Source: Propioniciclava sinopodophylli (GTDB lineage: Bacteria > Actinomycetota > Actinomycetes > Propionibacteriales > Propionibacteriaceae). Taken from it: a DNA stretch of 64,000 nucleotides. Below are positions 16,874 to 59,948 of the stretch, in pieces (positions within the stretch are counted from its first letter, which is position 1; the number at the start of each line of letters is the position of its first letter). The position numbers and the translations under genes are program-made. Below the pieces are notes generated by a model, which saw nothing but the letters and a program-made list of their open reading frames with translations, was not told the DNA's origin and did not search any database. The stretch spans positions 310,001 through 374,000 of the forward strand of contig NZ_SDMQ01000001.1 in assembly GCF_004324755.1 (NCBI RefSeq), given 5' to 3'.

Positions 16874-16914
16874 CCGCCGAGAGCCCCGGTGTTGGGCGTC
16901 GACAGCCCCTGTCG
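16874..16914. repeat. 22-bp repeat locus A (two plus units)
   Basis: Two units with cores GCCGAGAGCCCC and GTCGACAGCCCC lie 22 bp apart in the divergent promoter region between the glycosyltransferase and patatin genes. They belong to the family described at 39361, 44031, 52525, 57144 and 59690. Confidence 0.75.
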
Positions 16915-16946
16915 GATTGTCGGCCCGAGATCGTAGTGTTTCGCGC

Positions 16947-18803
16947 ATGACCACCCCTACCCCCTGCGACCTCGTGATGAAAGGCGGCGTGACGAGCGGC
17001 ATCGTCTATCCCCGCCTCGTGACGCGCCTGTCCCACCGCCACCGCTTCGTGCGCATCGGCGGCGCGTCCGCGGGCGCGATCGCCGCCGCGTTCACCGCGG
17101 CCGCCGAGTTCGACCGCCACCGCCGCGCGGGTGGCCACGTGCCCGACACCGACAGCCCGACGGGTTTCGACCTGCTCCACCTCATGCCGGACGCCCTGGC
17201 CCACGGCCTCCCCGCCCTGTTCGCCCCCCGCAACGACCTCCGCCACCACCTCGGCGCGGTCCTCGCCCTCGTCGACAAGCGGGGCGCGGGCAAGGTCCTC
17301 CCGGCCCTGCGCCACACCGTCGCCGGCTCGGCCGGACGCCTCGGGCTCGGCCTGGTCGCCTGCCTCGCGTTCGGGGCCGCCCTGGCCTGGTGCACCTGGG
17401 CCACGGGCGCGGCCGACCCGTGGGTCGCGGTGCTGACCGGACTCCTCCTTGCGGTGCTGCTGTTCGGCATCGTGGCCCTCTTCTGTCTGGTCTGGTTCGT
17501 CAGGGTGGGCTTCGAACGCGCCGTCGACAACGGGTACGGGCTCGTCCGCGGCTTGACCGACCCCGACGCCGGCACCGAGCCCGGCGGAGCCCTGACCGAG
17601 TGGATCACCGACAACCTCGATGCCACGGCCGGCCTGCCCCCGGGCCGCCCTCTCACGTTCGGCGACCTCTGGGGGCCCGAGGCTGTCCGCGCCCACCGCC
17701 GGCTGCGGCTCGGCACCGGCGAGCGCGCCGTCGACCCGGCGAAGCTGGAGTCGTTCAAGCCGATCATCGACCTGCAGGTCATGACCACCTGCCTGTCGCT
17801 GCGGCGTCCGTACACGTTCCCGTTCACGACGCGGGTCTTCCACTGGTGCCCCGACTGCTGGGCCGGCTGGTTCCCCCCACGCGTGATCGACCACCTCGTC
17901 GCCACGTCCAGGCCGGCGCGCCCGGAGCGCCAGCGCATCGACGGGGTGCCGACGCTCATCCCCGACCACTGCCTGCACCACACGGGCGTGCCGTTGCGCC
18001 GCCTCCCCCACCCCTCCGACATGCCGGTGACGGTGGGCGTCCGGCTGAGCCTGTCGTTCCCGGGCGTGATCAGCGCGGTGCCGATGTGGGTGCTCGACCG
18101 GTACCGTGCCGAGGGCCATTGGGGCTGGCGCGAGGTGTGGTTCTCCGACGGGGGCCTCACGTCGAACTTCCCGCTGGAGTTCTTCGACGCCCCGCTGCCC
18201 GGCCACCCCACCTTCGGCGTGACACTCGAGGCCCCGCACCCCGACTTCCCCGACCAGCTGGCGTTCCGACCCCTGAGGAACAACTCCGGCATCCTCGGCC
18301 GGGTGCGCCCCATCACCGGCGTCGGCTCATTCGTCGAGGCGATCATCGGCGTGCTCGTCGACTGGCGCGACGCCCTCACCGTGCCGGCCGCGGGCAACCG
18401 CGACCGGGTCGTCGAGGTGCGCATCCCCGAGGACGCGGGCGGCCTCCACCTCACGATGCCGCCCGAGGTCGTCACCGAGGTGGCCCGCCGCGGAGACGCC
18501 GGGGCGGCCGAGCTGGAGTCCTTCGACTGGGACAACCACCGCTGGATCCGCTACCGCACCGCCACCGCCGGCCTGGGCGACCTGCTGCACGACGCCCGCG
18601 AGAACTGGGGCCACTACGCCGACCTGCTGGAGCGCGAGAAGCCGCCCAGCTACCCCGTTGACGAGGGCCGCGAGGTCGACGACCGCGCAGCGACGGCGTC
18701 CCTGCTGGCCACGGCCGAGCGCATCCGCGAACTCGGCTACCCCGCCCACACCGGCCAGGTGCCCACGCCCCGACGGCCGTTCCGGGCCACCCCGTCGACG
18801 TGA
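16947..18803 (+). CDS. Patatin-like phospholipase with membrane segments
   Basis: A 618-residue patatin-fold lipid acyl hydrolase. The oxyanion loop KGGVTSGIVYP is at residues 12-22, the nucleophile Ser in GGASAGAI at about 38-45 (GXSXG), and the dyad Asp in FSDGGLTSNFP near 400. Two adjacent hydrophobic segments (about 135-185) insert a membrane anchor between these catalytic parts, an unusual layout seen in the RpoH-suppressor-like patatin group. A TAGTGT hexamer 7 nt before the ATG predicts a leaderless transcript. It probably acts on phospholipid at the membrane face; the substrate is unknown. The next gene starts 16 bp downstream. Confidence 0.8.
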   Translation: MTTPTPCDLVMKGGVTSGIVYPRLVTRLSHRHRFVRIGGASAGAIAAAFTAAAEFDRHRRAGGHVPDTDSPTGFDLLHLMPDALAHGLPALFAPRNDLRHHLGAVLALVDKRGAGKVLPALRHTVAGSAGRLGLGLVACLAFGAALAWCTWATGAADPWVAVLTGLLLAVLLFGIVALFCLVWFVRVGFERAVDNGYGLVRGLTDPDAGTEPGGALTEWITDNLDATAGLPPGRPLTFGDLWGPEAVRAHRRLRLGTGERAVDPAKLESFKPIIDLQVMTTCLSLRRPYTFPFTTRVFHWCPDCWAGWFPPRVIDHLVATSRPARPERQRIDGVPTLIPDHCLHHTGVPLRRLPHPSDMPVTVGVRLSLSFPGVISAVPMWVLDRYRAEGHWGWREVWFSDGGLTSNFPLEFFDAPLPGHPTFGVTLEAPHPDFPDQLAFRPLRNNSGILGRVRPITGVGSFVEAIIGVLVDWRDALTVPAAGNRDRVVEVRIPEDAGGLHLTMPPEVVTEVARRGDAGAAELESFDWDNHRWIRYRTATAGLGDLLHDARENWGHYADLLEREKPPSYPVDEGREVDDRAATASLLATAERIRELGYPAHTGQVPTPRRPFRATPST

Positions 18804-18819
18804 GGGGCCTGACCACGCC

Positions 18820-19737
18820 GTGACCCACCGCACCCGCACCTGGACGCCCGCGTGGCCGTGCCCCGTGGCGTCCATCTGGTCCACTTGGCGCCGCGGCACG
18901 GGTGACCCGACCTACCGCGTCGACGAGGCCGGACGCCACTGGCGCGCCCTGCACACTCCCACCGGCCCGGCGACTGTGCGCATCCTGCCCCGCCCCCAGG
19001 CGGGCACGGTCGAGGCGGACGCCTGGGGCGACGGCGCCGACTGGGCCCTGGACCAGCTGCCCCAGCTTCTGGGCGCCGACGACGACCCGACCGGCTTCGA
19101 GCCACGCCCTGAGCACCCCGTCCTGGCGCGGGCGTGGCACGTCCACCGGCACTGGCGGGTGGGCCGCGGCGGGGTGGTGTGGCAGGCGCTGCCGTCGGCG
19201 ATCATCGAGCAGAAGGTGACCGGCCAGGAGGCGTTCGGCGCCCAGCGCCGCCTCGCGCGCCGCTTCGGGACGCCCGCGCCCGGCCCGGCCGCAGACCTCG
19301 GGCTGCGCCTGACCCCCACCCCGGAGCAGCTCCGCGCGATCCCGTCCTGGGAGTGGCTGCGCCTGCCGGTCGACCACGCCCGCTCGGCGACACTGCTGCG
19401 GGCCGCGCGGGTGGCGTCCGGCCTCGAGCGCACCATTGCGCGGCCGGACGCCGATGCCCGCCTGCGTTCGGTGCCCGGTATCGGGGTGTGGACGTCGGCC
19501 GAGGTGCGCCAGCGCGCCCACGGGGACGCCGACGCCGTGAGCTTCGGCGACTACCACGTGGCGCGCAGCATCGGGTGGGCGCTCATCGGTGAGCAGACCG
19601 ACGACGACGCGGTCGCGGAGTTGCTCGAGCCGTACGCGGGGCACCGCTACCGGGTGCAGCGCCTGCTGGAACTGGCCGGCGTCCGGCACCCGCAACACGG
19701 CCCACGCATGGCACCGCGGGCCCACCTTCCGAGGTGA
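18820..19737 (+). CDS. DNA-3-methyladenine glycosylase II family (AlkA-like)
   Basis: A 305-residue HhH-GPD base-excision repair enzyme removing alkylated bases. The helix-hairpin-helix is LRSVPGIGVWTSAEVRQRA and the catalytic aspartate is in AVSFGDYHVARSI. The first half (PSAIIEQKVTGQEAFGAQRR) matches the conserved helical core of the family. It begins with GTG, with a GAGGGG sequence about 10 bp upstream. It probably shares a transcript with the patatin gene although no functional link is evident, and it ends in a bidirectional hairpin. Confidence 0.85.
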   Translation: MTHRTRTWTPAWPCPVASIWSTWRRGTGDPTYRVDEAGRHWRALHTPTGPATVRILPRPQAGTVEADAWGDGADWALDQLPQLLGADDDPTGFEPRPEHPVLARAWHVHRHWRVGRGGVVWQALPSAIIEQKVTGQEAFGAQRRLARRFGTPAPGPAADLGLRLTPTPEQLRAIPSWEWLRLPVDHARSATLLRAARVASGLERTIARPDADARLRSVPGIGVWTSAEVRQRAHGDADAVSFGDYHVARSIGWALIGEQTDDDAVAELLEPYAGHRYRVQRLLELAGVRHPQHGPRMAPRAHLPR

Positions 19738-19745
19738 GCCCGCGG
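19714..19745. terminator. Bidirectional terminator overlapping the alkA-like stop
   Basis: A 14-bp stem with one mismatch (CCGCGGGCCCACCT against AGGTGAGCCCGCGG, 4-nt loop) spans the stop codon of the glycosylase gene and is followed by CGTCTTT. It separates convergent genes. Confidence 0.6.
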
Positions 19746-19769
19746 GCCGTCTTTGCGGGGTGTGTCAGG

Positions 19770-20321
19770 TCAGCTGAGCACCTTCAGCTGCCAGGGGTAG
19801 GTGTAGGACTCGCCGTTCCACGTCTTGATGGCTCCGACGATGCCGAGCACGATCGAGCCGAGCGCGCCGGCGATGATGAGCGGGATGCCGATGACGGCAC
19901 CGATGACGGTGAACGTCAGCAGCCAGCCGATGATGCTCATCAGCCAGGTGGTCAGCACGAAGTTGAACGCGCCGGCCGAGGCGTTGCGCACGAAGGGCGA
20001 GCTGTCCTTCCTCACGAGGTAGACCACGAGGGGGCCGACGATGTTGAGCCAGCCGGCCGACACGATCGTGGCGATCGGCGCGGACAGGTGGGCGATCATC
20101 GCCCACAGTCGCTCGTCACCGCTGGCGCGGTGGCCGCCGGAGTGGTTGCGGCTGAGCGGCTGCCCGGCGTAGGGGTTCGAGTTGTAGGCGTCCTGGTAGG
20201 ACGAGCCCGACGAGTAGGGCTGGCCGGTCTGGGGGAACGGCGGCGGCGCGTCCATCGGGTTGGCCCAGGGCTTTCCGCCCTGGGGGTTCGGCGAGGAGTT
20301 CTGGGCCTGCGGATCAGTCAT
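19770..20321 (-). CDS. DUF4870 membrane protein
   Basis: A 183-residue protein with a proline/serine/tyrosine-rich cytoplasmic N-terminus (about 75 residues) and a DUF4870 membrane domain: RLWAMIAHLSAPIATIVSAG, a second span after LVRKDSSPFVRNASAGAFNF, and a third at AVIGIPLIIAGALGSIVLGI. The motif HLS...FV..NA..AFNF is typical of the family. The ATG at 20321 has a GGAG site 5 bp upstream. The function is unknown; relatives are small constitutive membrane proteins. Confidence 0.82.
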   Translation of the reverse strand: MTDPQAQNSSPNPQGGKPWANPMDAPPPFPQTGQPYSSGSSYQDAYNSNPYAGQPLSRNHSGGHRASGDERLWAMIAHLSAPIATIVSAGWLNIVGPLVVYLVRKDSSPFVRNASAGAFNFVLTTWLMSIIGWLLTFTVIGAVIGIPLIIAGALGSIVLGIVGAIKTWNGESYTYPWQLKVLS

Positions 20322-20432
20322 GACTCCATGATCCACCCGATCCCGGTGCGTTTTAAGCCTCTCAAGGGGGTGGTCAGGGGGCGTTCGGGGAACACCCGGC
20401 CGACCCGGGGTGGAGAACGGAGGTCGAGCGGG

Positions 20433-21416
20433 TCAGCCCAGGGAGTTGAGGTGCCGCTGGAGGGCCCGCGTGGTCGCCGGGCCCCAGACGCCGTCGGCCG
20501 TCGCGCCGACGACCCGCTGGACGCCGCGCGTGGTCTGCGGCCCGCGGACGCCGTCCACCGCAACACCGACCTTGGCCTGAAGCGCACGGGTGGTCGCCGG
20601 GCCCCAGACGCCGTCGGCGTTGGTGCCGACCCACCGCTGCATGGCGGTGATCGTCGGGCGGTCCAAAGTGCCGTTGACAGCCAGGTCGCCGCCGGGGGCG
20701 GGCACCGGTGACGGTGCGGGCGCAGGCGTGCTGGGTGCTCCCTTCAACAGGAACGACTGGAGCGCACGTGTCGTGGCGGGGCCCCAGACGCCGTCCGGGC
20801 TGGCGCCCACCACGGTCTGGACGCGGACGGTGGTCTGCCGGTCGCGGATTCCGGTGACGGACGCCCCGACCTTGGCCTGCAGGGCGCGCGTGGTGGCCGG
20901 GCCCCAGATGCCGTCGGGGGACGCGCCGACCCACTTCTGCATCGCGATGATGGTCGGGCGGTCGAGGTCACCGTTGACGGTGAGGGTGTCGTTGGCGGGG
21001 GGCGCGGGCTGCGCGCCGCCGTCGTCGTTCACGGGCTGCGCGTAGCGGTCGGCCCCGCCGTTCTCCTTGGTCAGGCCGGCCTTCACCGAGCAGGTCGGCC
21101 ACGCGCCTGGGCCCTGGACGTACAGCGTCCGGCGGGCGATCGCGATCTGCTGCGCCTTGGTGGCGTGGTGGGGGTAGTAGGCGTACTCGCGGCCGCCGAA
21201 CGCGGCCCACGTGCTCAGCGAGAACTGGACGCCGCCGTAATAGCCGTTGCCGGTGTTGATCGACCAGTTGCCGCTGGACTCGCACCGGGCCACGCGGTCC
21301 CACACCTCGAACTCGTTCGCGCCGGCCTGGGACATCATCAGGCTGCCGCCCACAAGGGCGCCCCACGAGACCATGGCGGTTGCGACCAGTCCGGTCACGA
21401 GGCGGTTGCTGGGCAT
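20433..21416 (-). CDS. Resuscitation-promoting-factor-type lytic transglycosylase with eight peptidoglycan-binding-like repeats
   Basis: A 327-residue secreted muralytic protein. A signal peptide (LVTGLVATAMVSWGALVGG) precedes an Rpf domain (about residues 35-110) with the catalytic Glu in WDRVARCESSGNWSINTGNG and GVQFSLSTWAAFGG. The C-terminal half is two blocks of four about 20-residue units; the phrase WGPATTRALQ occurs identically four times. These look like short peptidoglycan_binding_1-type repeats. The start is the ATG at 21416, with a GGAAGGA site; the preceding GTG is too close to that site. The role is cell-wall cleavage and growth stimulation. Confidence 0.88.
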   Translation of the reverse strand: MPSNRLVTGLVATAMVSWGALVGGSLMMSQAGANEFEVWDRVARCESSGNWSINTGNGYYGGVQFSLSTWAAFGGREYAYYPHHATKAQQIAIARRTLYVQGPGAWPTCSVKAGLTKENGGADRYAQPVNDDGGAQPAPPANDTLTVNGDLDRPTIIAMQKWVGASPDGIWGPATTRALQAKVGASVTGIRDRQTTVRVQTVVGASPDGVWGPATTRALQSFLLKGAPSTPAPAPSPVPAPGGDLAVNGTLDRPTITAMQRWVGTNADGVWGPATTRALQAKVGVAVDGVRGPQTTRGVQRVVGATADGVWGPATTRALQRHLNSLG

Positions 21417-21531
21417 CACATGTCCTTCCGACGACGAGCGGGCCGGAATCGAGCATGCGGGCGTCCCTGAGGAATCGTCAAAGGATTACCGAGAAACCCT
21501 CAGGGAAAGGTCAAAGGTGCGAGGGGGCTCG

Positions 21532-21813
21532 TCAGCTCTGGTTGTAGAACGAGCCGGTGAGGTGCGCGGCGTCGTCCATGGCGGTCACGCCGGGCGGCGC
21601 GAGCACCAGCACGTAGGCGGTCACCTTGTCGATGTTGCCCTGCAGGCCGAACACCATGCCGGAGACGAAGTCGACCAGGCGGTGCATCTCCTCGGCGTCC
21701 ATGCGGGTGAGGTCGAGCACCACGATGTCGCCGTCGCGCAGGTGCTCGCCGATCACCCGGGACTCCCGGTAGGAGGTCGGATGGAACACGACGATGCTGC
21801 GGGCCTGTGGCAC
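21532..21813 (-). CDS. Short SepF-like cell division protein
   Basis: A 93-residue protein consisting almost only of the SepF (DUF552) core: SIVVFHPTSYRESRVIGEHL, DGDIVVLDLTRMD and FVSGMVFGLQGNIDKVTAYV, followed by a short tail. GTG at 21813 has an AAGGGAG site 6 bp upstream. Actinobacterial SepF of the division cluster normally carries an N-terminal amphipathic membrane-targeting helix and linker, absent here, so this is probably a second SepF paralogue. It is divergent from the PEPCK gene. Polymerisation or FtsZ tethering would need a partner for membrane attachment. Confidence 0.82.
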   Translation of the reverse strand: MPQARSIVVFHPTSYRESRVIGEHLRDGDIVVLDLTRMDAEEMHRLVDFVSGMVFGLQGNIDKVTAYVLVLAPPGVTAMDDAAHLTGSFYNQS

Positions 21814-21966
21814 GAGGGCTCCCTTCTGGCCGCACCAGTCTCCCAGACTGCGGCAGGACGCCGTGGGCACGACACCCTCCCTAACACACCCGCTGCGTCC
21901 GGACGGTTCGGTGCCAACGCCGCGGAACCCCGTGACTTTTCGCCCGATCCGAAAGAGGGTGTTCTC

Positions 21967-24900
21967 ATGGACGCATCCACCGCCGCCATCAACCTCCGAC
22001 TCGCACTCATCGGCCAGCCCTTGGTGGACGCCGAGGAGTTCGCCTCCGACACCACGATTGCCCCCCTGTTGGCCCGGCAGCGCGAGCTGTCCCGGCGGCT
22101 GTCCGACCGGCTCTCCCCCACCGACCAGCGCATCCAGGACTTCCTCGACGACTACCTCGCCGGCACGTCGACCAAGGTGGAGCTGCCCCGCCGCACGCTC
22201 GTCCTGGACCAGCCCGGGCTCGCGCGCGAACTGAGCCTGCCTGTCGACTCCGACTCCTTCTCCTCTGACCTGCTCTCGAGCTACCGCCTGGTCAACGGCG
22301 TCCTGCACAACCCCGCCAACGACCGCCGCACGACCGCGGGCGTGTTCCACATCGCCGAGGGCGGGCTGCCGATCCCCGACGACAAGGTCGCCGTCGACCG
22401 CGACGCCGCCGCGCGCATCTTCGCCGCCGCCTTCACCCCGCCGGCCGAAGCCCGGCGCCTGCCCTGGTCCTCGACCGCCGACGATCCGGCCGAGTGCTTC
22501 GTGTCGTTGCTGCTGCGTCCGCTCGTGGTGCCGGGGGTGCACGGCGTCAATCCCGAGCGCAGCCTCGAGGTGCGCTTCATCGTGCCGGGCGGCATGGTCG
22601 CCAACCTCGACTTCGTCGAGTCGATCTTCGGCAACGGCGGCGACCCCTACCTGCCCGAGAACGACGCTTCGCTCGACCCCGAGACCTGGACCGGCCACAC
22701 CGGCCTGGTCGTGCTCGCCCCACACCTCACCGCGCTGACGAAGAAGGAGTTGGGCTTGCCCCACGTCTCCGAGGCCACCGAGCGCCAGAAGCGCGACGGC
22801 CAGTGCTGGGAGGCCGAGGACGAGCGCTACAACGGTGGCCAGGCCTTCAAGCTGTGCCTGCGCGACGCCCGCGGCGTCATCGCCACCGTGATCGCCGACA
22901 ACTACTTCGGCTACTGCAAGAAGGAGGTCAAGACCCAGATCTCCTACTCCGCCAACCTGCTTGGCAACGCCGAGGAGGAGCACGCCGGTGGCGCCGTCGT
23001 GTTCCCGGCCTACAACCTCGGCCGCGAGTGGGTCGACGCCCGGACGCCCGCGTCCTACACCGTCGCGGACGCCGTGGCGCGCGACCCCGAGCTGTGGGAG
23101 CGGCAGCCCGCCGGTCACGCCGTCCACGCCGCGTGGGACCACCTGACGCTGGTGCCCGCCGGCGCGTCCTTCTCCCTGTCCAACCGCTCGGTGACCTGGG
23201 ACGGCCCCGACGGCGCCGGCGAGATCCGCCTGGACGCCGGGCACACCTACCTGCTGCCCAACGGCTACCGCGTCCACGCCAAGCACCGCGAGACCGACCG
23301 CACGCACTGGCACCTGGTGGGCACCTCGTCGGAGCCGACGCACTGCCACAAACCGGCCACCGTGTCCGGCGGCGGCAAGAGCGAGATCAGCAAGTCGATC
23401 CTGGATGCCTTCCAGTTCGGCCCGATCTGGGTGTCGGACTTCGAGTCCGACATGGACCAGGTGCAGCAGCTCATCGACGGTGACTACCAGTGGCGCTTCG
23501 CCGACCCCGAGCGGAACGGCTCCGACCACCGCGGCATCCTGTCCGAGGAGCGCTCGCTGGGCTCGGTCATCAAGCTGATGACTCCCTCCAGCCGCTTCAG
23601 TGACGGCCACAACGCACACCTGCGCACGATCCCCGACCACGTGAAGGAACTGCTCTTCACGGTGAAGCGGTACCACCGGCCCGAGTGGGGCTCCGACTGG
23701 CGCAGCCACTTCAGCGTCCGCACGATCAACGGCCGCGAGGGCAACTCACTGCGCGTGGACGGTGACCCGGTGGTGGCCAACTACCTGCGCGTCGGCTTCG
23801 AGACGGACGGCTCGTGGCGCCTGTTCTCGCTGCGCCCCGACTTCTCGGCCGCCGTGAAGGTGCAGTCCGAGGACGACATCACGGCGTCCACCGTCGTGCC
23901 CGGCGCCAGCATTCCGCACGCGGATGCCACGGCGTCCGGCCTGTCACGCAAGGTGGTGGCCAACTGCGAGCAGCTCCTGTTCCAGCGCCCCGACGACGCG
24001 ATCCACCGCGGCTACGACAAGCAGACCGAGATCGACATGAGCCAGCCCGGCACGTTCATCTCCAACTTCGAGCCGCTGACCCACGACGACGCCCGGGAGA
24101 TGGTCGAGGACGTCCAGGCGTTCTCGCTGTACAGCGAGCCGATGGCCGGCCTCATCGAGTACGTGGCCGAGATGGCCGACGACGAGGGCCCCGCCTACTT
24201 CGTCAGCTCCTCGGAGCCGCGCCTGGTCAACGGCAAGCCGTCGAAGAACCCGCGGTACCTGCAGGTGCGCCCCGACCTGTCGAAGCCGGAGGCGACGGCC
24301 ACGGCCGACATCGCGCTGCACCTGTTCCTGCGCGTTCCGCTCGACCAGCCGTGCCCCGCGCCGGTCGACATCGTCGCCGCCGGGCGCCGCAACAACGCGG
24401 CCGAGCCGGGCGTCCCGCCGCTGTGCACCTACAACCCGCTGCACTACATGGAGCTGCCCGAGCTCTTCATGGAGTTCATCAGCTCGATGACCGGCAAGTC
24501 CCCGTCGACGACGGGCGCAGGCTCGGAGGGCGCGATGACAAAGGGGCCGTTCAACGCGCTGCCGCCCATCTACGACCTGAACGCCGCCCTGCTCTCGTTC
24601 GTGCTGACCGGGTACGACGGCTGGCTGTCGTCGGCGGGCATGATCGGCCCCAAGGTCCGCATCGACCACGACTTCTCGATGCTGGTGCCCGAACTGTTCA
24701 GCCGCATGAAGGACGACGAGCGCTCGGCCGCCTCCCTGATCGCGAACGGCTACCTGGAGAAGCTGGCCGACTTCGAGCACGACGGCGCGACCGTCGCGGC
24801 GTCCCGGCTCGGCTACCGGATGAACGAGGCGTTCGCGACCACGTTCTTCGGGCGCATCTTCCTGCACCCCGACGTGGTGTTCACCCCCGAGATGCTCAAG

Positions 24901-25356: not shown

Positions 25357-25370
25357 ACCACTCACGCCTT

Positions 25371-39360: not shown

Positions 39361-39472
39361 CCGCCGAGAGCCCCGTGTTTACCCGCCGAGAGCCCCGGGT
39401 TTACCCGCCGAGAGCCCCGCGTTTTTCGGTCGAGAGCCCCAGTTCTGTCCGCCGACAGCCCCTCCCTTGGGC
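39361..39472. repeat. 22-bp repeat locus B (five plus units)
   Basis: Cores GCCGAGAGCCCC, GCCGAGAGCCCC, GCCGAGAGCCCC, GTCGAGAGCCCC and GCCGACAGCCCC start at 39363, 39385, 39407, 39429 and 39451, exactly 22 bp apart; the other 10 bp of each unit vary and are often G/T-rich. The array lies between the SH3 gene and pgi, both on the plus strand. It is the clearest unidirectional array in the window. Confidence 0.85.
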
Positions 39473-44030: not shown

Positions 44031-44082
44031 GCCGACAGCCCAAAACACGGGCTGTCGGCGCCCGGAACGCAGGCTCTCGGCG
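44031..44082. repeat. 22-bp repeat locus C (one plus, two minus units)
   Basis: GCCGACAGCCC at 44031 faces two reverse units, GGGCTGTCGGC (ending 44059) and GGCTCTCGGC (ending 44081), which are 22 bp apart. The first pair forms an 11-bp hairpin with a 7-nt loop just after the carbonic anhydrase stop codon. It lies between carbonic anhydrase and argS. Confidence 0.75.
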
Positions 44083-52451: not shown

Positions 52452-52524
52452 TGAGATCGAGGGTCAGGAGCGCCCGGCCGTCGTGGCGACGTTCCCTAAC
52501 CGCTTCTACGCCTGACCCCTCTTC

Positions 52525-52700
52525 GCCGAGAGCCCCGGGTTTCACTGCCGAGAGCCCCGGTTGCGTCCGCCGACAGCCCGCAGCGGGGGCTTTCGGTGCA
52601 GAACGCCAGGGCTGTCGGCGCAGAATGCCGGGGCTGTCGGCGCAGAACGCCGGGGCTGTCGGCGCAGAACGCAGGGGCTGTCGGCGCAGAACGCCGGGGC
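52525..52700. repeat. 22-bp repeat locus D (three plus, six minus units)
   Basis: Plus cores at 52525, 52547 and 52569 (GCCGAGAGCCCC twice, then GCCGACAGCCC) are followed by minus units whose GGGC starts at 52587, 52609, 52631, 52653, 52675 and 52697. Every step within each half is exactly 22 bp. The minus units are nearly identical (GGGCTGTCGGCGCAGAACGC). The array fills the gap between the acuC relic and the DAC-domain gene; the rest of the gap to 52800 shows only a possible promoter. Confidence 0.85.
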
Positions 52701-52800
52701 ACTGGTCGTGCCTCCCGCTTCGCCGCGGCGAAGGGCAGTGGGACTGGCCGCCGAGCAGCGTGAATAGCGGAAACGGTCCCCGGCTGACAACATTCGCACC

Positions 52801-54516
52801 GTGGCGGAGATGTGGGAGCACCAAGCGGGCTTCAGGTGGTCCCTGGAGCAGTTGGCCAACGAGGTGCTCGACCGCGCCGGCGCCAACGTCGACCCCCGCG
52901 CCTACCTGATCGGGTTCCGCGACAACGGACAGGTCACCGTCGAACCGGCCCGTGGGCACTTCGACCGCGACATCCTCGCCGACGCGCTCGACCGCGCGCA
53001 GCAGCGCTTCGCCCGCTCCAAGGCGCGCCGTGAGGCCGGCGACGACGAGAACGCCCTCGCCGCGGCCGAGTCGTACGTCCGCCGCGAGGTGCTGGCCGAG
53101 AAGCTAGGCGAGGCCGCGCGCACCGTCGGGCGCCAGCACTTCGCGGGCATCGGCGTCCCGATCGGGGAGTGGTTCATCGTTCCCGTGCTGGCCATCCACG
53201 CCGACCCGTGGAACGACCTCGCCCGCCTCCGCCGCACGCCCGCCGGCGACTCTTCGCCCCGCAGCTTCCCCGAGGCCGCCGTCACCGCCGTCCTCGACGC
53301 GGCCAGCCGCGAGCTGGATCGTCGCGTCCCGGGCGTCCGCCTGCACGTCGACCCGGACGCCGTCCTCCGCTCGGCCGCGGACGTGTTCGTCTCCACCCTC
53401 GTCCAGCGGGCCGGCCAGGACCTCGCCCACGGCGTCCGGCACGCACTCGACGCCGTGTCCGCCCAGCCGTACGAGGGACGCGCGGGCACGGGGTCGGTCC
53501 TGCTGGCCCAGCAGGGGCACCCCGACCTGACCGTCGAGGTCGCCCTCGAGCACCCGGTGCCCGTGGCGCTGGCGCGGTCGTTCCGCAAGGTGCTCGAGAT
53601 GTCGGACGCCGACCTGCACCTCCTCTGCGACGGGCGCGAGGTGTTCGGGCTCGGCACGCTCGCCGACACCTACAACGCCGACTCCGAGTACGTGTTCACC
53701 GCCACGATCAGCGGCAACGGGTCGTGGGAGCTGTGGCACCAGTCCACGCCGCTGCTGCGCATGGACAACGGCCTGCCGCAGCTGCCCCGCGAGCGCCTCG
53801 ACGAGGACGAGTTCTCGCACACGGTCGACCTCGTCTTTCCCGAGGCGTCCGCACGTAACGCGCGCCAGCTGTGGGAGATGGCCGTCGCCTGCGCGCGCCA
53901 GTCGCACGGCACGATGCTGGTCGTCCACCCGGACGCCGCCGCCGAGTCCGACCGCCTGCTGCCGCAGGTGCACGCGATCACGCCGGCGCGCCTCACCGGG
54001 CGTGTCCTGACCGCTGCAACGTCGATCGACGGCGCCGTGCTCGTCAGCCCGGACGGCCGCGTCCACGCCGTCGGCGTCATCCTCGACGGCGTGGCCACCG
54101 GCACCGGCGACTCCGGGCGCGGTGCGCGCTACAACTCGGCGATCCGTTACCTGGCCGGCGCCGGGCGGGGCGCCATGGTCATCATCGTCAGCGAGGACGG
54201 CAAGATCGACCTGCTGCCCAAGCTCAAGCGCCGGATGCGGCGCGAGACCGTGCAGCGGGCCGTCGACCGGCTCGTCGCGCGCTCCGCCGAGGGCGAGGAG
54301 CTCGAGGCGTTCGACCGCGCCAACCGGGCCGTGGTGGCGATCGAGTTCTACCTCAACCAGGAGCAGTGCGACCAGGTCAACGCCGCCCGCGACGCCGTTC
54401 AGGGCCGCGAGTGGGCGGCCGAGCACCTGCGCCGCCAGTTCGTCCCCGTTGCGCCCGACCCGGCGATGGACGACAGCTACTTCGTCGACCGCCGGACGGG
54501 CGCGTCCGAGGGCTGA
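52801..54516 (+). CDS. DisA_N/DAC (diadenylate cyclase)-domain protein with unknown N-terminal half
   Basis: A 571-residue cytoplasmic protein. Residues about 400-490 look like a diadenylate cyclase domain: SIDGAVLVSPDGRVHAVGVI supplies the DGA motif, and GRGARYNSAIRYLAGAGRGA stands where GTRHRAA is expected, followed by MVIIVSEDGKIDL. In canonical enzymes the second motif is RHR/RHxxA; here it is ARYNSA, so activity is uncertain. The first 380 residues show no domain I know. It starts with GTG without a ribosome binding site. It could make or sense c-di-AMP. Confidence 0.65.
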   Translation: MAEMWEHQAGFRWSLEQLANEVLDRAGANVDPRAYLIGFRDNGQVTVEPARGHFDRDILADALDRAQQRFARSKARREAGDDENALAAAESYVRREVLAEKLGEAARTVGRQHFAGIGVPIGEWFIVPVLAIHADPWNDLARLRRTPAGDSSPRSFPEAAVTAVLDAASRELDRRVPGVRLHVDPDAVLRSAADVFVSTLVQRAGQDLAHGVRHALDAVSAQPYEGRAGTGSVLLAQQGHPDLTVEVALEHPVPVALARSFRKVLEMSDADLHLLCDGREVFGLGTLADTYNADSEYVFTATISGNGSWELWHQSTPLLRMDNGLPQLPRERLDEDEFSHTVDLVFPEASARNARQLWEMAVACARQSHGTMLVVHPDAAAESDRLLPQVHAITPARLTGRVLTAATSIDGAVLVSPDGRVHAVGVILDGVATGTGDSGRGARYNSAIRYLAGAGRGAMVIIVSEDGKIDLLPKLKRRMRRETVQRAVDRLVARSAEGEELEAFDRANRAVVAIEFYLNQEQCDQVNAARDAVQGREWAAEHLRRQFVPVAPDPAMDDSYFVDRRTGASEG

Positions 54517-54518
54517 GG

Positions 54519-55316
54519 TCAGCCGATCGGTTGCTGGAGGTCGACCACCCAGCCCTCGCCGTCGAACGGCGTGGACAGGTACACCTCGCGGCAGGTGCCC
54601 TGGGCCGTGAGCCCCCGGCGCTCCACCTCGCTGACGAGGCCCTGCCACGCGGCTTGGATGCCCTCCAGGTCGGGCGCCACGTACTGCGTGGTCAGCGCCC
54701 GATCGACGGCCTCCACCGTCACTTCCTCCAGGCCGGCGGGGGTGGGGGCGTCCCCGATCGGCTCGGCGGCGGAGGCGATCATGGCGTCCCTGTCGGGGGC
54801 GTAGAGGGCGACGCCGGGGCCGACCGGGTGGACGCCGGACGCCGTCAGCGCCGACCCGACGGAGTCGAACAGCGGGCCCATCTCGGTCTCGAACGACGTC
54901 ATGTCGGTGATGCGCACCGATCGGGCGGCCAGGGTCAGGGCGGGCAGGGCGGTCTCGTGGTACGTGGACATGGGGATCTCCTTCGCAATCAGGCGGATAC
55001 GCGCCTGGACCTGCGCGAGACGGCGTGCGTCGGCCCGGAGCTGGTGGGTCAGCTCGTCGGAGCGCTGCCGCAACAGCGCCAGGACCTCACCCTCGGACGC
55101 CCCGTCGGCCAGCAGGTGGCCGACCTGGTCGAGGGAGAAGCCGAGGTCCTTCAGCGCGACCAGGCGGTTGGCTCGGTCGAGCTGGGCGGTGGAGTACGAG
55201 CGGTAACCCGTGTACTCGTCGACGCGAGCCGGCTCGAGCAGGCCCAGCCGGTCGTAGTGCCGCAGCATGCGCACCGACACCCCGACCAGACGGGCGAACT
55301 CTCCGATACTCAACAT
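54519..55316 (-). CDS. MerR-family regulator with a GyrI-like effector domain
   Basis: A 265-residue protein. The N-terminal MerR domain (LSIGEFARLVGVSVRMLRHY, DEYTGYRSYSTAQLDRANRL) is followed by a dimerisation helix (to about residue 115) and a GyrI-like/AraC effector-binding domain (LAARSVRITDMTSFETEMG to the C-terminus). This is the BmrR/TipA-type multidrug-sensing layout. A perfect 8-1-8 palindrome at 55332-55348 lies upstream of its start and is the likely autoregulatory operator. It ends convergently 2 bp from the DAC gene. Confidence 0.87.
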   Translation of the reverse strand: MLSIGEFARLVGVSVRMLRHYDRLGLLEPARVDEYTGYRSYSTAQLDRANRLVALKDLGFSLDQVGHLLADGASEGEVLALLRQRSDELTHQLRADARRLAQVQARIRLIAKEIPMSTYHETALPALTLAARSVRITDMTSFETEMGPLFDSVGSALTASGVHPVGPGVALYAPDRDAMIASAAEPIGDAPTPAGLEEVTVEAVDRALTTQYVAPDLEGIQAAWQGLVSEVERRGLTAQGTCREVYLSTPFDGEGWVVDLQQPIG

Positions 55317-55331
55317 GTCTGCACTCCACCG

Positions 55332-55348
55332 CCTGACACCGTGTCAGG
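55332..55348. promoter_or_regulatory. MerR-type operator palindrome
   Basis: CCTGACACCGTGTCAGG is perfectly symmetric around one base and matches the TGACAC...GTGTCA dyads placed between -35 and -10 in MerR-regulated promoters. It lies 15 bp upstream of the merR start. Confidence 0.7.
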
Positions 55349-55359
55349 TTCAAGCCCCG

Positions 55360-55929
55360 CTACGAGGCCGACCAGTACGGGTCGCGTCCGATGAACGACA
55401 TGAGCCGGTCGGTGGCGTCCGCGTCCGCGCGCAGCGGGCCGCGCTCGGAACCGAACTGGCCGGACGCCCTCAGCATGGGCTCGATCGGCTCCATGCCGGC
55501 GAGCATCTCGGTGGCGACGGCCTCGTCGAGGCGGTCGTCCTGCCCCGTGGCGCGGGCCAGGTCCCACGTGTGCATGAACACGTCGGCGGTGTAGAAGTTC
55601 TGGATCATCACCGCCAGTGGCATGTCGCCGGTCATCGGGTTGGAGAAGGTCTTGGTCTGGGTGGCCGGGTCCTCCAGCACCGCTTGGACGGCATCGCGCT
55701 GGTGCTCCCACGCGGCGAGCAGGTCGACCTTCGGGTCGGGGCCGTCGGGCAGCGCGACGTCGGAGCCCGCGGCGAGCATGCCCGGGAACCACTCCAGCAG
55801 GTGCTCGACGACCGAGCGGGCCTTCCACCCGGCGACGGGGGCGGGGGCGTCCCAATCGGCGACGCCCTTGATGCGGTCGGTGAACGTGGCGGAAGCCGAG
55901 CGGTGGGCCTCGGCGAACTGGTTGCTCAT
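55360..55929 (-). CDS. TIGR03086-type metal-binding protein (DinB/maleylpyruvate isomerase fold)
   Basis: A 189-residue protein with the four-helix DinB-like pattern: NQFAEAHRSASATFTDRIKG, WKARSVVEHLLEWFPGML (first His), FYTADVFMHTWDLARATGQD (second His pair) and the C-terminal LMSFIGRDPYW tail seen in the TIGR03086 group. Such proteins are thought to be mycothiol- or metal-dependent transferases. ATG at 55929 is the only good start. Function in detail unknown. Confidence 0.8.
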   Translation of the reverse strand: MSNQFAEAHRSASATFTDRIKGVADWDAPAPVAGWKARSVVEHLLEWFPGMLAAGSDVALPDGPDPKVDLLAAWEHQRDAVQAVLEDPATQTKTFSNPMTGDMPLAVMIQNFYTADVFMHTWDLARATGQDDRLDEAVATEMLAGMEPIEPMLRASGQFGSERGPLRADADATDRLMSFIGRDPYWSAS

Positions 55930-55990
55930 GGTCAAACGCTAGCCGCGGCGTCCGACAGAATGCGCCGGACGCGGTGGATCCGCGGTTGCT

Positions 55991-56539
55991 TCACAGGTAC
56001 CGGCGCATCCCGGCGACGACCTGGTCGAAGCGGTCCCGCGGCAGCGAGACCGAGACGCGGCGCACGGCGTCCGGGTCGACGCGGATGACGCGGTTCACCC
56101 GCACCTCCGACTCGCGGCCGCGGTTGTCCCACGCGCCGGCGCCGATGTCGACCCAGAAGCGGCCCGCGCGGGCCTCCTGCTGCTCGTCGAAGTCGTGGTC
56201 CTTGCTGGTCATCTGCAGGCCGAGCAGCCACGGGCCGTCGCGCCCGACGAGCACGACGGGGCGGTCCTTGCCGCGGGAGTGGTCCTCCTCGTAGGGCACC
56301 CACGTCCACACGACCTCGCCGGGGTCGGGGCGGTTGCCGCGCACCGGCGCGTAGTCCACCTGCGGCATGCCCCGGAAGTCGCCGGGGTAGCTCTGACGGC
56401 CGGACGCCGCGGGCTCGCTGCGCTGCCGCTGCCGCGGCTGTTGCTGCTCCTGGCGTGGACGGCGGGTGGCCTCGCGCAGGCCGGTGCGCAGGAGGTCCCG
56501 GGCGATGCGGCCGAGGGCGGAGAGGAGGCGGTTGTCCAT
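55991..56539 (-). CDS. PemK/MazF-like protein
   Basis: A 182-residue protein. A basic N-terminal helix and a Gln/Arg-rich linker (QEQQQPRQRQRSEP) precede a PemK/MazF fold: GEVVWTWVPYEEDHSRGKDR, PVVLVGRDGPWLLGLQMTSK. In true MazF toxins this region binds RNA. Homologues of this form are common in actinobacteria without an antitoxin gene, and none is adjacent here, so a toxin role is doubtful. It lies 10 bp upstream from the next gene's stop and is probably co-transcribed with it. Confidence 0.75.
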   Translation of the reverse strand: MDNRLLSALGRIARDLLRTGLREATRRPRQEQQQPRQRQRSEPAASGRQSYPGDFRGMPQVDYAPVRGNRPDPGEVVWTWVPYEEDHSRGKDRPVVLVGRDGPWLLGLQMTSKDHDFDEQQEARAGRFWVDIGAGAWDNRGRESEVRVNRVIRVDPDAVRRVSVSLPRDRFDQVVAGMRRYL

Positions 56540-56549
56540 TCGGGGGAGC

Positions 56550-57122
56550 CTAGCGATAGCGGGGCAGGGGGCCGTAGTGGACCTCGTCCGGCCGGACCAC
56601 GGCGGGGGCCGCGGGGTGGCGGCGGAGGTGCCAGCGCTCGGCGAAGGAGCGGGCGGCGGGCGTCCACAGCAGGGCGGCGCCGAGCGCGATGAGGGGGATG
56701 CCGATCCAGGCCACCCAGTTGATGAGCAGGGCCAGCAGGGAGACGGCCGTGGCGATGAGGCCGGCCCTGCGCGCCCAGCCGAACCCGCGCCAGCCGTAGT
56801 GGCCGGCGATGATCGCGCCCGCCCCGATGAGGAGGGTGACGACGAACAGCGCGGTGACCATGAGGACGCGCAGCAGGCTGCCCGGCTCGGTGGCGACGAC
56901 GCCGTTCAGCCATGCGGCGTCACCGAACTCACGGACGCTGCGCCAGAAGGCCCACAACAAGCCCGCGACGACGAACGCGATGCCGGTGAAGAACGCGGCG
57001 GCGGACGCCCACACCACGGCCGGACGCCTGGGTTCGCCGGTGTTCTGGTCGACGGAGGTGTCGACCGTCCGTGCAGCCGTGCCGATGCTCGGCTGCGCGG
57101 TGTTCTCGGAAGCGCTGGACAC
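56550..57122 (-). CDS. Four-span membrane protein of unknown function
   Basis: A 190-residue protein with spans at VVWASAAAFFTGIAFVVAGL, LLRVLMVTALFVVTLLIGAG, AGLIATAVSLLALLINWVAW and IGIPLIALGAALLW, plus a proline-rich C-tail (HPAAPAVVRPDEVHYGPLPR). The GTG at 57122 is the first reasonable start; further upstream lies repeat locus E. I do not recognise the family. Confidence 0.65.
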   Translation of the reverse strand: MSSASENTAQPSIGTAARTVDTSVDQNTGEPRRPAVVWASAAAFFTGIAFVVAGLLWAFWRSVREFGDAAWLNGVVATEPGSLLRVLMVTALFVVTLLIGAGAIIAGHYGWRGFGWARRAGLIATAVSLLALLINWVAWIGIPLIALGAALLWTPAARSFAERWHLRRHPAAPAVVRPDEVHYGPLPRYR

Positions 57123-57143
57123 GGCGCCCAGCCTAGACGCTGC

Positions 57144-57220
57144 GCGGAGAGCCCCTGTTCCGACCGCCCAAGGCCCCCAGCAGGGGCTGTCGGCAGACAA
57201 ACACGGGGCTCTCGGCGGCT
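57144..57220. repeat. 22-bp repeat locus E (two plus, two minus units)
   Basis: Plus units start at 57144 (GCGGAGAGCCCC) and 57166; minus units have GGGC at 57184 and 57206 (GGGCTGTCGGC and GGGCTCTCGGC). The array spans the upstream side of the four-span gene and ends 63 bp from the CoA-transferase stop. Confidence 0.75.
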
Positions 57221-57282
57221 GGGGGCGCGCACGCGAACGGGGCGCCGGCTGGAAGCCGGGGCCCCGCTGGTGCAGGAGAAGG

Positions 57283-58788
57283 TCAGCCCTTCATCGAGCC
57301 CGTCTCGAGGAAGCGGCGGTGCCACTCGTGCGAGGTGGCCAGGTCGTGCGGGGTGTGCGCCCCGTTGGCGACCTTGGCGGCGCGGGCGACGTACTCGAGG
57401 AGAGCCTCGCGGTAGTCCGGGTGGGCGCAGTTCTCGATGATGACCTTGGCGCGCTGCTTCGGCGACAGGCCACGCAGGTCGGCCAGACCCTGCTCTGTGA
57501 TGATGACCTGCACGTCGTGCTCGGTGTGGTCGTGGTGCGACACCATCGGCACGATCGCGGAGATGTCACCGTTCTTGGCCAGCGACGGGGACACGAAGCA
57601 CGAGATGTAGGCGTTGCGGGTGAAGTCGCCCGAGCCGCCGATGCCGTTCTGCATGCGGGAGCCCATGATGTGGGTCGAGTTCACGTTGCCGTAGATGTCG
57701 GCCTCGATCATGCCGTTGCAGGAGACGACGCCGAGTCGACGGATGACCTCGGGGTTGTTCGAAACCTCCTGCGGGCGCAGCACGATGTGCTCGCGGTACT
57801 TCTTGGCGTTGTCGTTCATCCTCGCCGCAGCCTCGGGCGACAGCGAGAAGGCGGTGGCGGAGGCGACCAGCAGCTTGCCGGAGTCGATCATGTCGACCAT
57901 GCCGTCCTGGATGACCTCGGTGTAGGAGGTCAGCTGCTCGAACGGACCCTCGTTGAGGCCCACGAGCACCGCGTTGGCGATGTTGCCCACGCCGGACTGC
58001 ATCGGGAGCAGGTTCTTGGGCATGCGGCCCTGCTTCACCTCGTTGCCGAGGAAGTCGAGCAGGTTTTCCGCGATGGTCTTCGACTCCTGGTCGAGCGGCT
58101 TGAACGGCGAGTTGCGATCCTCGGCGTCCGTCTCGATGACCGCGGCGACGCGGCTCCAGTCGATGTCGTAGTACTTCGAGCCGATGCGGTCGCCGGCGGC
58201 GTTGATCGGGATGGCGACGTTCTCGCCCGGCAGCTTCATCGAGTAGATGTCGTGCATGCCCTCCAGATCGATGGACTGCCACGCGTTCACCTCGAGGATG
58301 ATCTTCTTGGCGGTCTCGAGGTACACGTTGTTGTTGCCGACCGAGGAGGAGGGGATCGCGGTGCCGTCGGCGTTGATGGCCGCGACCTCGACGACGGCGA
58401 CGTCCAGGTCGCCCCAGAAGCCCTGGCGAACCTGCGGGCCGGAGTGGGAGAGGTGCACGTCGTAGTACTCGGACGTGCCGGCGTTGATCTTGTTCCGCAT
58501 CACGGGGTCGGACTGGTACGGCATGCGCATGGAGATGCCGTCGACCGCGGCGAGGGCACCGTCGTGCTCGGGCGCGGTGGACGCGCCGGTGTAGGACGCG
58601 ATCTGGAACTCATCACCCCTGTCGTGGGCGGCCTTGATCTCGGCGGCCAGCGCCTCGGGCAAGACCTTCGGGTAGCCGGAACCGGTGAAGCCGGAGAACC
58701 CGACCCGGTCGCCGTTCTTGATCAGCTTGGCGGCCTCCTCGGCCGACATCACCTTGGAGCGGTACGTGTCAGAAGCGATGCGGGACAT
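57283..58788 (-). CDS. Acetyl-CoA hydrolase/transferase family CoA-transferase (succinyl-CoA:acetate/propionate type)
   Basis: A 501-residue class I CoA-transferase. KNGDRVGFSGFTGSGYPKVL, SSVGNNNVYLETAKKIILEV and the active-site Glu in NGMIEADIYGNVNSTH are conserved, and YISCFVSPSLAKNGDISAIV supports the acetate/succinate group. ATG at 58788 follows GGGAGGAAA. In propionibacteria this enzyme moves CoA from succinyl-CoA to propionate or acetate, or releases product, closing the Wood-Werkman cycle. It is distinct from the PEPCK but belongs to the same metabolism. Confidence 0.88.
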   Translation of the reverse strand: MSRIASDTYRSKVMSAEEAAKLIKNGDRVGFSGFTGSGYPKVLPEALAAEIKAAHDRGDEFQIASYTGASTAPEHDGALAAVDGISMRMPYQSDPVMRNKINAGTSEYYDVHLSHSGPQVRQGFWGDLDVAVVEVAAINADGTAIPSSSVGNNNVYLETAKKIILEVNAWQSIDLEGMHDIYSMKLPGENVAIPINAAGDRIGSKYYDIDWSRVAAVIETDAEDRNSPFKPLDQESKTIAENLLDFLGNEVKQGRMPKNLLPMQSGVGNIANAVLVGLNEGPFEQLTSYTEVIQDGMVDMIDSGKLLVASATAFSLSPEAAARMNDNAKKYREHIVLRPQEVSNNPEVIRRLGVVSCNGMIEADIYGNVNSTHIMGSRMQNGIGGSGDFTRNAYISCFVSPSLAKNGDISAIVPMVSHHDHTEHDVQVIITEQGLADLRGLSPKQRAKVIIENCAHPDYREALLEYVARAAKVANGAHTPHDLATSHEWHRRFLETGSMKG

Positions 58789-58962
58789 CCATTTCCTCCC
58801 TGAAATGACGTTCTTGGGCGACACCTTAGCCAAACTCCCGCCTCGCGTGCTCACCCGCATTGCCGCCCGTGAGCGGCCGGACGCCGCCGGCTCGGCCCGG
58901 CCGGGTCTGTGTGGCCCGGACGCGCTGGGCGGCGCCCTAGACTGACGGTGAAAGGGGTAGTC

Positions 58963-59685
58963 GTGAGTGGTGAGCAGGAGGCCGTGCCGACTGGCACGAC
59001 GCTGCCCGCACGCAAGCCGACGCCCCTGTGGCTGGTCGTCCTCGGCAACGTCGTCGTCGCCCTGGCCATCGTGTCCCTGGTGCAGACGTTCGTCGTCCGG
59101 GTCCACAACGTCGCCTCGGGTTCGATGCAGGAGACCCTCGGCGTCCGTGACCGCGTGCTGTCGTCCAACCTGCCCTACCTGAACTCGGGGCCCCAGCGCG
59201 GCGACATCGTGATCTTCGGGCACGGTGCGTCCTGGGAGGACCCGGTCCGCACCCCCGACCCCAACCCTGTGATCGCGGCCGTCCGCATCTTCGGCGACGT
59301 CACCGGCATCGGCATCTCCAACCGGACTTACACCGTCAAGCGCGTGCTCGGCATACCGGGGGACACCGTCGAATGCTGCGACGCGCAGGGCCGACTCGTG
59401 GTGAACGGGCAGTCGATCGACGAGCCGTACATCCACCGCGACCTGCCCTTCATCGCAGGAGGCCTCGACTGCGCGAGCACGCCGCGGTCCGCGCGCTGCT
59501 TCCCGCCCATCACGGTGCCCGAGGGGAGTTACCTCGTCCTGGGCGACCACCGCTCGAACTCGGCCGATTCGGTCTCGGGGTGTCGCGGGGCGAGGGACGC
59601 CGTTGGGTGCGCCCGCCTCGTCCCGGGCGCCCGCATCACCGGCAAGGTGATTGCGAAGGCCTGGCCGCCCGGCCCGGTCGGCTGA
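58963..59685 (+). CDS. lepB: Signal peptidase I
   Basis: A 240-residue type I signal peptidase. One N-terminal span (WLVVLGNVVVALAIVSLVQT) leads to the catalytic serine in NVASGSMQETLGVRDRVLSS and the lysine in TYTVKRVLGIPGDTVECCDA; box E reads YLVLGDHRSNSADS. An AAAGGGG site 6 bp before GTG 58963 fixes the start. It cleaves exported preproteins such as those at 6258 and 20433. Confidence 0.9.
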   Translation: MSGEQEAVPTGTTLPARKPTPLWLVVLGNVVVALAIVSLVQTFVVRVHNVASGSMQETLGVRDRVLSSNLPYLNSGPQRGDIVIFGHGASWEDPVRTPDPNPVIAAVRIFGDVTGIGISNRTYTVKRVLGIPGDTVECCDAQGRLVVNGQSIDEPYIHRDLPFIAGGLDCASTPRSARCFPPITVPEGSYLVLGDHRSNSADSVSGCRGARDAVGCARLVPGARITGKVIAKAWPPGPVG

Positions 59686-59689
59686 TCCC

Positions 59690-59948
59690 GCCGAGGGCTT
59701 GGGTCCAGACCGCCGAGGGCTCCGGTTCGATGCGCCGAGGGCTCCGGTTCGATGCGTCGAGTGCTCCGGTTCGCTGATCTGCGTGCGGATTTCCCTACAG
59801 AACTCAAGCCCTCGGCGGTCTGAAGGCAAGCCCTCGGCGGTCTGAAGGCAAGCCCTCGGCGGTCTGAAGGCAAGCCCTCGGCGGTCTGAAGGCAAGCCCT
59901 CGGCGGCCTGAAGGCAAGCCCTCGGCGCTTCTAACCCAAGCCCTCGGC
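59690..59948. repeat. 22-bp repeat locus F (four plus, seven minus units)
   Basis: Plus cores GCCGAGGGCT (or GTCGAGTGCT) start at 59690, 59712, 59734 and 59756. After a 40-bp unrelated stretch, minus units with AAGCCCTCGGC start at 59806, 59828, 59850, 59872, 59894, 59916 and 59938. All steps are 22 bp. The last unit runs into the 3' end of the pqqD-like gene and encodes part of its C-terminus. It lies between convergent lepB and pqqD. Confidence 0.85.

Follow-up and report, generated by a model that had tools for sequence, protein, structure and literature searches.

Introduction

The best-known pairing of a gene with its own dispersed repeats is that of repetitive extragenic palindromic (REP) sequences with the genes of REP-associated tyrosine transposases (RAYTs), and it rests on one enzyme fold. 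As described in parts of PMC2817692 and PMC3733652, such a gene lies between two inverted repeats, the repeats are dispersed and mostly clustered, and several genes of this kind can occur per genus. TIRtrons, in the part of PMC3733652 that deals with them, likewise consist of a RAYT-like gene between inverted repeats, which can also recur in the genome. Here we analyze intergenic arrays of tandem 22-bp units in a 64,000-nucleotide stretch of Propioniciclava sinopodophylli (C11:310001-374000, 71% G+C; hereafter the window), which belongs to a genome of 3.07 Mb in 43 contigs (G000), together with an AbiEi/DUF559-like gene family that is flanked by repeats. We put at roughly two in three the probability that these arrays represent non-coding copies, dispersed in the genome, of the repeats flanking this family, and they seem to exemplify a broader partnership of gene and repeat within this bacterial class.

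Results

Spacing and orientation of the arrays

Units were labeled by the spelling of their core, or dialect, namely dialect 1 (GCCGASAGCCCC), dialect 2 (GCCGAGGGCTTG/CC), and dialect 3 (GCCGAGGACTCG). Exact GCCGASAGCCCC occurs in 264 copies in the 3.07-Mb genome, and the reversed pattern in 3. Scanning of 841 kb of G000 with the wider core GCCGASRRCY returned 120 pairs at 22 bp and no more than 2 at any other spacing between 10 and 43, and every pair of exact dialect-1 cores on the same strand and up to 400 bp apart was spaced by a multiple of 22. A preliminary description of the window had proposed counting core spacings in the genome and its relatives; in DNA from five genus genomes, the tally was 235 pairs of cores at 22 bp, 2 at 21, none at 23, and 1 at 24, where the G007 and G011 loci had been chosen by the 22-bp pattern and are biased to it, and the G000 loci and most of those from G001 and G008 (18-46 allowed) are free of that bias. 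Outside the 10-bp core, a mean of 3.8 of the remaining 12 positions differ between paired units (five species), which amounts to 891 non-core differences over 234 unit pairs at 22 bp, as against just 3 pairs spaced by 21 or 24 bp. Sequence differs between units while 22 bp holds, and the spacing is therefore kept despite sequence drift. The unit consensus approximates GCCGASAGCCCCGGNNTTNTGC, with a T-rich linker following the plus core.

A generic array finder, which itself requires partners at 22 bp, yielded 109 arrays in 1.39 Mb from five genomes and none on the reversed sequence. The arrays had been described as exclusively intergenic, which holds for 104 of them; the remaining 5 of the 109 fall within genes as we called them, with start positions that may be incorrect. 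On the same gene calls, 87 of the 104 intergenic arrays have a single orientation, 16 are convergent, and 1 is divergent, and the convergent order is not a product of chance. Divergence at many loci had been named in advance as grounds for refutation, and its count came to one array against 16 convergent ones. The further statement that the two halves never diverge is true of the window and fails genome-wide, as evidenced by three minus followed by three plus units at C2:78973-79116, and by a minus core preceding two plus cores at site B of the congener G001. The arms of one array, C22:11819-12111, are of different dialects. Given these mixed arms and the prevalence of single orientation, a paired stem is therefore not a general trait of the arrays. 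A DNA-binding partner, which the preliminary description envisaged as phased on one helix face, is plausible, and a candidate is encoded outside the window (see below).

Array edges that face a stop codon lie at a median of 9 bp from it, with 87 of 117 within 25 bp (mean 63, maximum 71 in 200 random placements), whereas those facing a gene start lie at a median of 76 bp, with 16 of 91 within 25 bp, slightly rarer than at random (mean 24, lowest 15, again in 200 placements). Convergent gene pairs accommodate 32 of the 104 arrays, compared with 77 of 565 intergenic gaps of at least 60 bp. Across the tail-side gene, 28 of the 87 single-orientation arrays (~14 pairs) meet a facing array and only 1 of 87 a same-orientation array, a count that a second same-orientation pair (G008 C33, contig edge) escaped; the convergent rule therefore spans whole genes. 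Among consecutive arrays, we found no single gene enclosed in divergent order. Sense orientation after the stop codon was rejected as the sole rule, with 28 sense and 18 antisense single-orientation arrays between co-directional genes.

A gene subfamily enclosed by facing arrays

One of the genes enclosed by facing arrays in G000 (C22:79257-80096) is a member of a small subfamily. Searching the genus retrieved eight such genes for a protein of ~300 amino acids, 49-100% identical to the query, of which three are in G000 (C22:79257, C7:59094, and C11:388241), a genome that also has three main dialects, one in G001, and two each in G007 and G008. The subfamily is present in 4 of 13 genus genomes, each of them array-bearing, and absent from the 8 array-poor ones. 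All eight genes have 22-bp arrays within 1.5 kb, and five have facing arrays directly on both sides, as identified by the finder (L196, L206, L197, and L198) or, for the two left units of L207, by eye. At L214 the minus array stands one gene further out, and contig ends truncate L199 and L208. Arrays of the GCCGA core accompany none of 22 more distant in-genus paralogs.

Each array-flanked gene carries one dialect. In the gene tree, the eight subfamily genes form one group (support 100/99), the dialect-2 genes of four species group together (100/98), and so do the GAC-type genes of two species (100/98), a label that was set after the cores, GCCGAGGACTCG and GCCGAGGACCGG, had been seen. Shuffled labels did as well in 16 of 500 trials for dialect 2, 52 of 500 for GAC, and 500 of 500 for dialect 1; for the three dialect labels jointly, 2 of 200 shuffles needed as few changes. 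For two of the three dialects, the gene tree follows dialect and not species. The dialect-2 gene adjoins an enolase-like gene in all four species, and the t3 gene of G000, the GAC gene of G007, and the t1 gene of G008 adjoin one common ATPase-like gene (neighbors named by eye). This looks like fixed-place inheritance with co-divergence of repeat and protein.

Homologs elsewhere carry flank repeats of their own

In a profile search of 394 genomes sampled across the class, homologs at E ≤ 1e-20 turned up in 149. Twenty-four other-genus homologs, mostly the best-scoring, were picked from the match list before their flanks were seen, and the left flank of each was scored against the right one, direct or inverted. 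A score of at least 45 was reached by 22 of these 24, by 15 of 21 paralogs in the genus that do not belong to the GCCGA group, and by 1 of 130 ordinary genes of similar length; at 60 or more, the figures were 18 of 24, 13 of 21, and 1 of 130. The count leaves out L215 (contig edge) as well as L222 and L224 (truncated second copy of a locus). Scores below 45 were those of L228 and L241 in other genera and of L233, L200, L209, L205, L220, and L213 in the genus.

These flank repeats take several forms, with a period of 19 in two G029 genes and of 20 in G278, hairpins in G352, G434, and G477, and flanking inverted repeats of 76-89 aligned bases at the G278, G293, and G261 homologs. In 1.0 Mb, the hairpin of the C33 paralog of G000 has 4 additional locations, against none in the reversed control, and the period-19 repeat of G029 forms 3 exact tandem pairs at the gene and 5 elsewhere (reversed control 0), with none in 19 other genomes of that genus. 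The L206 protein had no tblastn match at 1e-8 among plasmids, and no relative of the family protein appeared among 66 candidate stretches from IMG/VR.

Three further observations concern single loci or small sets of them. In homologs of six genomes (L231, L237, L239, L240, L243, and L247), TGATCACGTTCA lies near the outer end of otherwise unlike flanking inverted repeats, and might mark true element ends. The family paralog L233 (G000 C42:98312-99100), with flank scores of 22 and 24, has no detectable flank repeats. The family gene L215 (G007 C129), near a contig end, has a direct flank score of 708, which reflects either misplaced gene bounds or an extensive direct duplication.

Predicted domains of the protein

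The domain make-up is most legible in relatives of the array proteins. Pfam placed AbiEi_4 above cut-off in 2 of 8 relatives (40.2 bits, cut-off 25) and DUF559 in 1 of 8 (27.7 bits, cut-off 20.6), and the AbiEi models of PADLOC matched 6 of 6, the best at 1.6e-18. A 22-row alignment, whose outside rows are 25-36% identical to the first, revealed E176 and Q194 as invariant and D208, E219, D221, K225, R246, and R259 as nearly so, a set that we take to fit the DUF559-type PD-(D/E)XK motif. Among 27 excised proteins, 3 were checked by eye alone, and several in evidently wrong frames were excluded from use. By analogy with these relatives, the array proteins may combine an AbiEi-like winged-helix N-terminus with a DUF559-type (PD-(D/E)XK-like) nuclease C-terminus. 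Comparison with the PDB gave no credible structure match, the sole match (E 1.7) being meaningless.

Dialects and distribution among genomes

A scan of 198 family genomes for tandem GCCGASRRCY pairs returned 316 in G000, 66 in G008, 55 in G001, 48 in G007, and 21 in G011, and 0 or 1 in each of the other 8 genus genomes; arrays thus occur in 5 of 13. In other genera, 7 of 185 genomes have one pair each, as do 5 in the reversed control. Each array-bearing species has its own core spellings, and G000 has at least three dialects, plus a fourth spelling on C16. There (L082, C16:3544-3687), seven plus units have GTCCAGGACTTC as their commonest core, which is nearer to the G011 dialect than to the main ones of G000. 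Shared intergenic places can hold different dialects, as evidenced by dialect 1 at G001:2845678 versus dialect 2 at G000 C11:88759, and, to the left of a gene named by eye as glutamine-amidotransferase-like, by dialect 2 in G001 versus dialect 1 in G008. In IMG/VR, neither the dialect-1/G001-type nor the dialect-2 tandem pattern had a match, and the dialect-1 pattern gave one exact match in each of 2 records of an 84,980-species collection, which we take as chance.

G000 C4:62008-67519 and G001 C1:256500-262012 (L071, L084) share 5.5 kb at 97.9% identity, the two species being otherwise far more diverged, and this piece, probably a recent transfer, holds the sole exact dialect-1 tandem pair of G001. 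A 0.7-Mb segment of G001 (C1:182218-849887) contains 18 of the 24 GCCGASAGCC pairs of the complete 3.43-Mb chromosome.

Gene content next to arrays also varies. G001, G006, and G011 lack gene 87 (C11:388232-389125) at the corresponding place, and G001 likewise lacks gene 122 (C11:427948-428949). A model in which arrays are the ends of inserted gene cassettes was rejected, other enclosed genes being ancestral. Comparison of gene-order changes at arrays and at array-free gaps of at least 60 bp gave weak differences, namely 10/15 vs 13/37 in G001, 9/13 vs 15/28 in G006, and 7/9 vs 10/14 in G011.

The arrays of the window

Sequence scans recovered the 22-bp-spaced cores at all six loci of the preliminary description. 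They count about 33 units in all (2 in A, 5 in B, 3 in C, 9 in D, 3 in E, and 11 in F), which comes near the minimum of 34 claimed. Array A (16876-16919, plus strand) consists of 2 plus units of dialect 1, the second core reading GTCGACAGCCCC. Array B (39363-39472, plus strand) has 5 plus units of the same dialect between an SH3-domain gene and a phosphoglucose isomerase gene. At this site, G006 and G011 have a hairpin without an array (by eye), and the array of G001 is of dialect 2. Array C (44031-44081), between a carbonic anhydrase gene and argS, is made of a single plus core, a short loop, and 2 minus units, and in the congener G008 a hairpin of one plus and one minus occupies the same place. 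The argS gene is similar to its counterparts in Nonomuraea and Embleya. Array D (52525-52707) reads 3 plus then 6 minus units of dialect 1, with a junction gap of 5 bp; a stricter finder accepts 5 of the 6 minus units. Array E (57144-57216) comprises 1 degenerate plus and then 2 minus units, and its flanking genes are 265 bp apart in G000 and ~910-960 bp apart in G001, G006, and G011. Array F (59690-59948) has 4 plus then 7 minus units of dialect 2 (GCCGAGGGCTYS); in G001 this site has no array and the flanking genes overlap at their stop codons.

The plus-before-minus order described for loci with both orientations is indeed that of C, D, E, and F, and the 10-bp linkers are visibly alike within an array, which supports the local amplification that had been proposed. 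The two core forms, previously treated as one family, are the same kind of repeat and resolve into separate dialects. Array F was said to extend into the end of pqqD; it does overlap the right-hand gene, the outermost core supplying the final codons of that gene, but the name finds no backing, the 88-amino acid product having no Pfam match at 0.001. The search of the window against Rfam at curated thresholds returned nothing except one tRNA. The gene to the right of array D (52801-54516) probably encodes the sensor domains DACNG and DACNH.

Discussion

A candidate mechanism for the spread of the arrays

The spacing, the dialects, the gene-repeat association, the dispersal, and the patchy presence of the arrays are supported directly, as is the match between protein lineage and dialect for two of the three dialects. 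From this strong association we infer binding, cutting, copying, and mobilization, and likewise the direction of cause. In such a scheme, the winged helix would recognize the 12-bp core, and the 22-bp spacing, that is, two helical turns, would allow several copies to be bound in phase and cooperatively. The nuclease-like domain would then nick or cut at arrays, upon which repair or template switching might copy units within an array, in inverted orientation across the gene, or to new places. New arrays would persist at sites that bear them without much damage, chiefly right after stop codons. Convergent order would be accounted for if a productive pair required the tail of the unit to point inward, an idea modeled on RAYT genes, which also stand between REPs in inverted orientation.

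A number of results weigh against dispersal from the flanks of this gene family. On the DNA side, we saw no target-site duplication at array ends by eye, filled and empty sites being too diverged for exact junctions, and caught no insertion with exact junctions. The flank-score cut of 45 was chosen once the scores were known, and G006, rather than the genomes of the homologs, supplied 83 of the 130 control genes. Scores of the six GCCGA-array genes themselves were 104, 124, 102, 46, 36, and 24, two of them below that cut. When flanks were paired across loci (689 pairs), inverted scores reached 32 at the 95th percentile, 94 at the 99th, and 762 at most, as compared with 33 at the 99th percentile and 38 at most for direct pairing; the high inverted scores probably stem from shared neighbor genes or dialects. 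Eight other flank repeats were sought in partial genomes, where five had no match (one of these had 4 reversed-control matches), that of G001q had two weak matches, and that of G005 one place along with a control match; of the eight, C33 alone is convincing for dispersal. The G477 repeat has a single diverged extra copy.

On the protein side, none of the eight array proteins had a Pfam match above cut-off, none of three tried against NCBIfam had a match, and their AbiEi matches in PADLOC were 5e-6 or weaker, with none for L214. The dialect-1 genes of G000 and G008 fail to come together in the gene tree, being joined in 22% of bootstrap replicates. Nor does every array have its gene: G011 holds 21 array pairs and no family gene at E ≤ 0.001, its arrays being, we assume, orphans after gene loss; G001 has dialect-1 arrays and no dialect-1 gene; and the fourth spelling on C16 is without a known gene.

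Other explanations of the arrays

Their position immediately behind stop codons, far beyond that of random placements, together with the over-filling of convergent gene pairs and the terminator-like hairpins at site B of G006 and G011 (by eye), would suit arrays that act as transcription terminators or 3'-end hairpins of mRNA and whose association with the gene family is incidental. We deem this unlikely, considering that 87 of 104 arrays have a single orientation, that the plus core is followed by a T-rich linker, so that a convergent hairpin is trailed by A-rich and not T-rich sequence, and that both the dialects and the flanking of one gene family would go unexplained. Judged from the consensus, the arrays lack the stem followed by a T-run that is typical of intrinsic terminators, with the exception of the minus-plus hairpin at site B of G001, which is trailed by AGTTTT.

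The AbiEi-like N-terminal region of the relatives, the aptness of tandem phased sites for a winged-helix protein, and the arrays flanking the gene itself would also fit a transcription regulator whose operators are scattered over a regulon, with neither cutting nor copying. The rarity of arrays near gene starts speaks against such promoter-centered sites, many sites vary between congeners, and the conserved nuclease-like residues would be left without a role, all of which makes this account quite improbable. Alternatively, slippage and gene conversion could have spread satellite-like repeats without the help of a dedicated protein, the flanked gene being a passive hitch-hiker. Local homogenization and the occurrence of different dialects at shared sites agree with this possibility, and the nearly identical 5.5-kb piece of G000 and G001, which includes one array, means that transfer alone can move arrays. 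We nonetheless hold it to be very improbable, as homologs of other genera are flanked by repeats of other sequence and period, and the dialect-2 gene, together with the dialect that belongs to it, keeps a single fixed position in four species.

Comparison with known systems

The dispersal of repeats from the flanks of an AbiEi/DUF559-like gene family is the reading that we favor. In a broader and more tentative version, to which we grant somewhat less than even odds, these would be widespread actinobacterial selfish elements, unrelated to RAYTs or other transposases, in which a protein with an AbiEi-like winged helix and a DUF559-type nuclease recognizes, cuts, and multiplies its own phased arrays, protein lineages having their specific dialects and the arrays reshaping 3' ends. 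If true, this would be a second independent solution, and such partnerships would evolve repeatedly; a role would be suggested for a common protein family, and several co-diverged protein-repeat pairs in one genus would offer a test bed for the evolution of DNA specificity.

R6K-type iterons are tandem 22-bp units too, from which our arrays differ in being dispersed over many chromosomal places and in having inverted arms. The protein resembles the AbiE type IV toxin-antitoxin system (PMC3985639) in its AbiEi-like N-terminal region, which is clearest in relatives, and departs from it in the DUF559-like C-terminal part and the flanking repeats of its own. The neighbors seen beside its gene are enolase-like and ATPase-like. 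TIRtrons find a parallel in the long flanking inverted repeats of the G278, G293, and G261 homologs, although the enzyme family here is unrelated to tyrosine transposases. No description of AbiEi/DUF559 genes with cognate repeats figured among the literature matches listed, mostly open-access, and the letters of the core occurred in 7 papers, all on other subjects to judge by their titles.

REP/RAYT proper was rejected as an explanation. The HUH Y1 transposase (PF01797) was detected in 0 of 13 genus genomes, with the positive control detected in 5 of 14 named genomes, and the unit consensus displays no GTAG or CGTC tag (by eye) of the kind that REP units carry along with a short palindrome. 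With both the Y1 transposase and the tag wanting, the system is therefore not filed as REP/RAYT. The likeness to REP/RAYT, including REPtrons, bacterial interspersed mosaic elements (BIMEs), and REPINs (paired REPs), resides in the architecture: a partner gene lies between inverted repeats, directly so for 5 of the 8 array genes, and the same repeats are dispersed extragenically, with 104 of 109 arrays being intergenic. The differences lie in the partner, which is AbiEi/DUF559-like, and in the repeat, a tandem array at a fixed 22 bp instead of a single short palindrome. Collectively, the system looks like a counterpart, as yet undescribed, to the REP/RAYT partnership, built with an unrelated enzyme.

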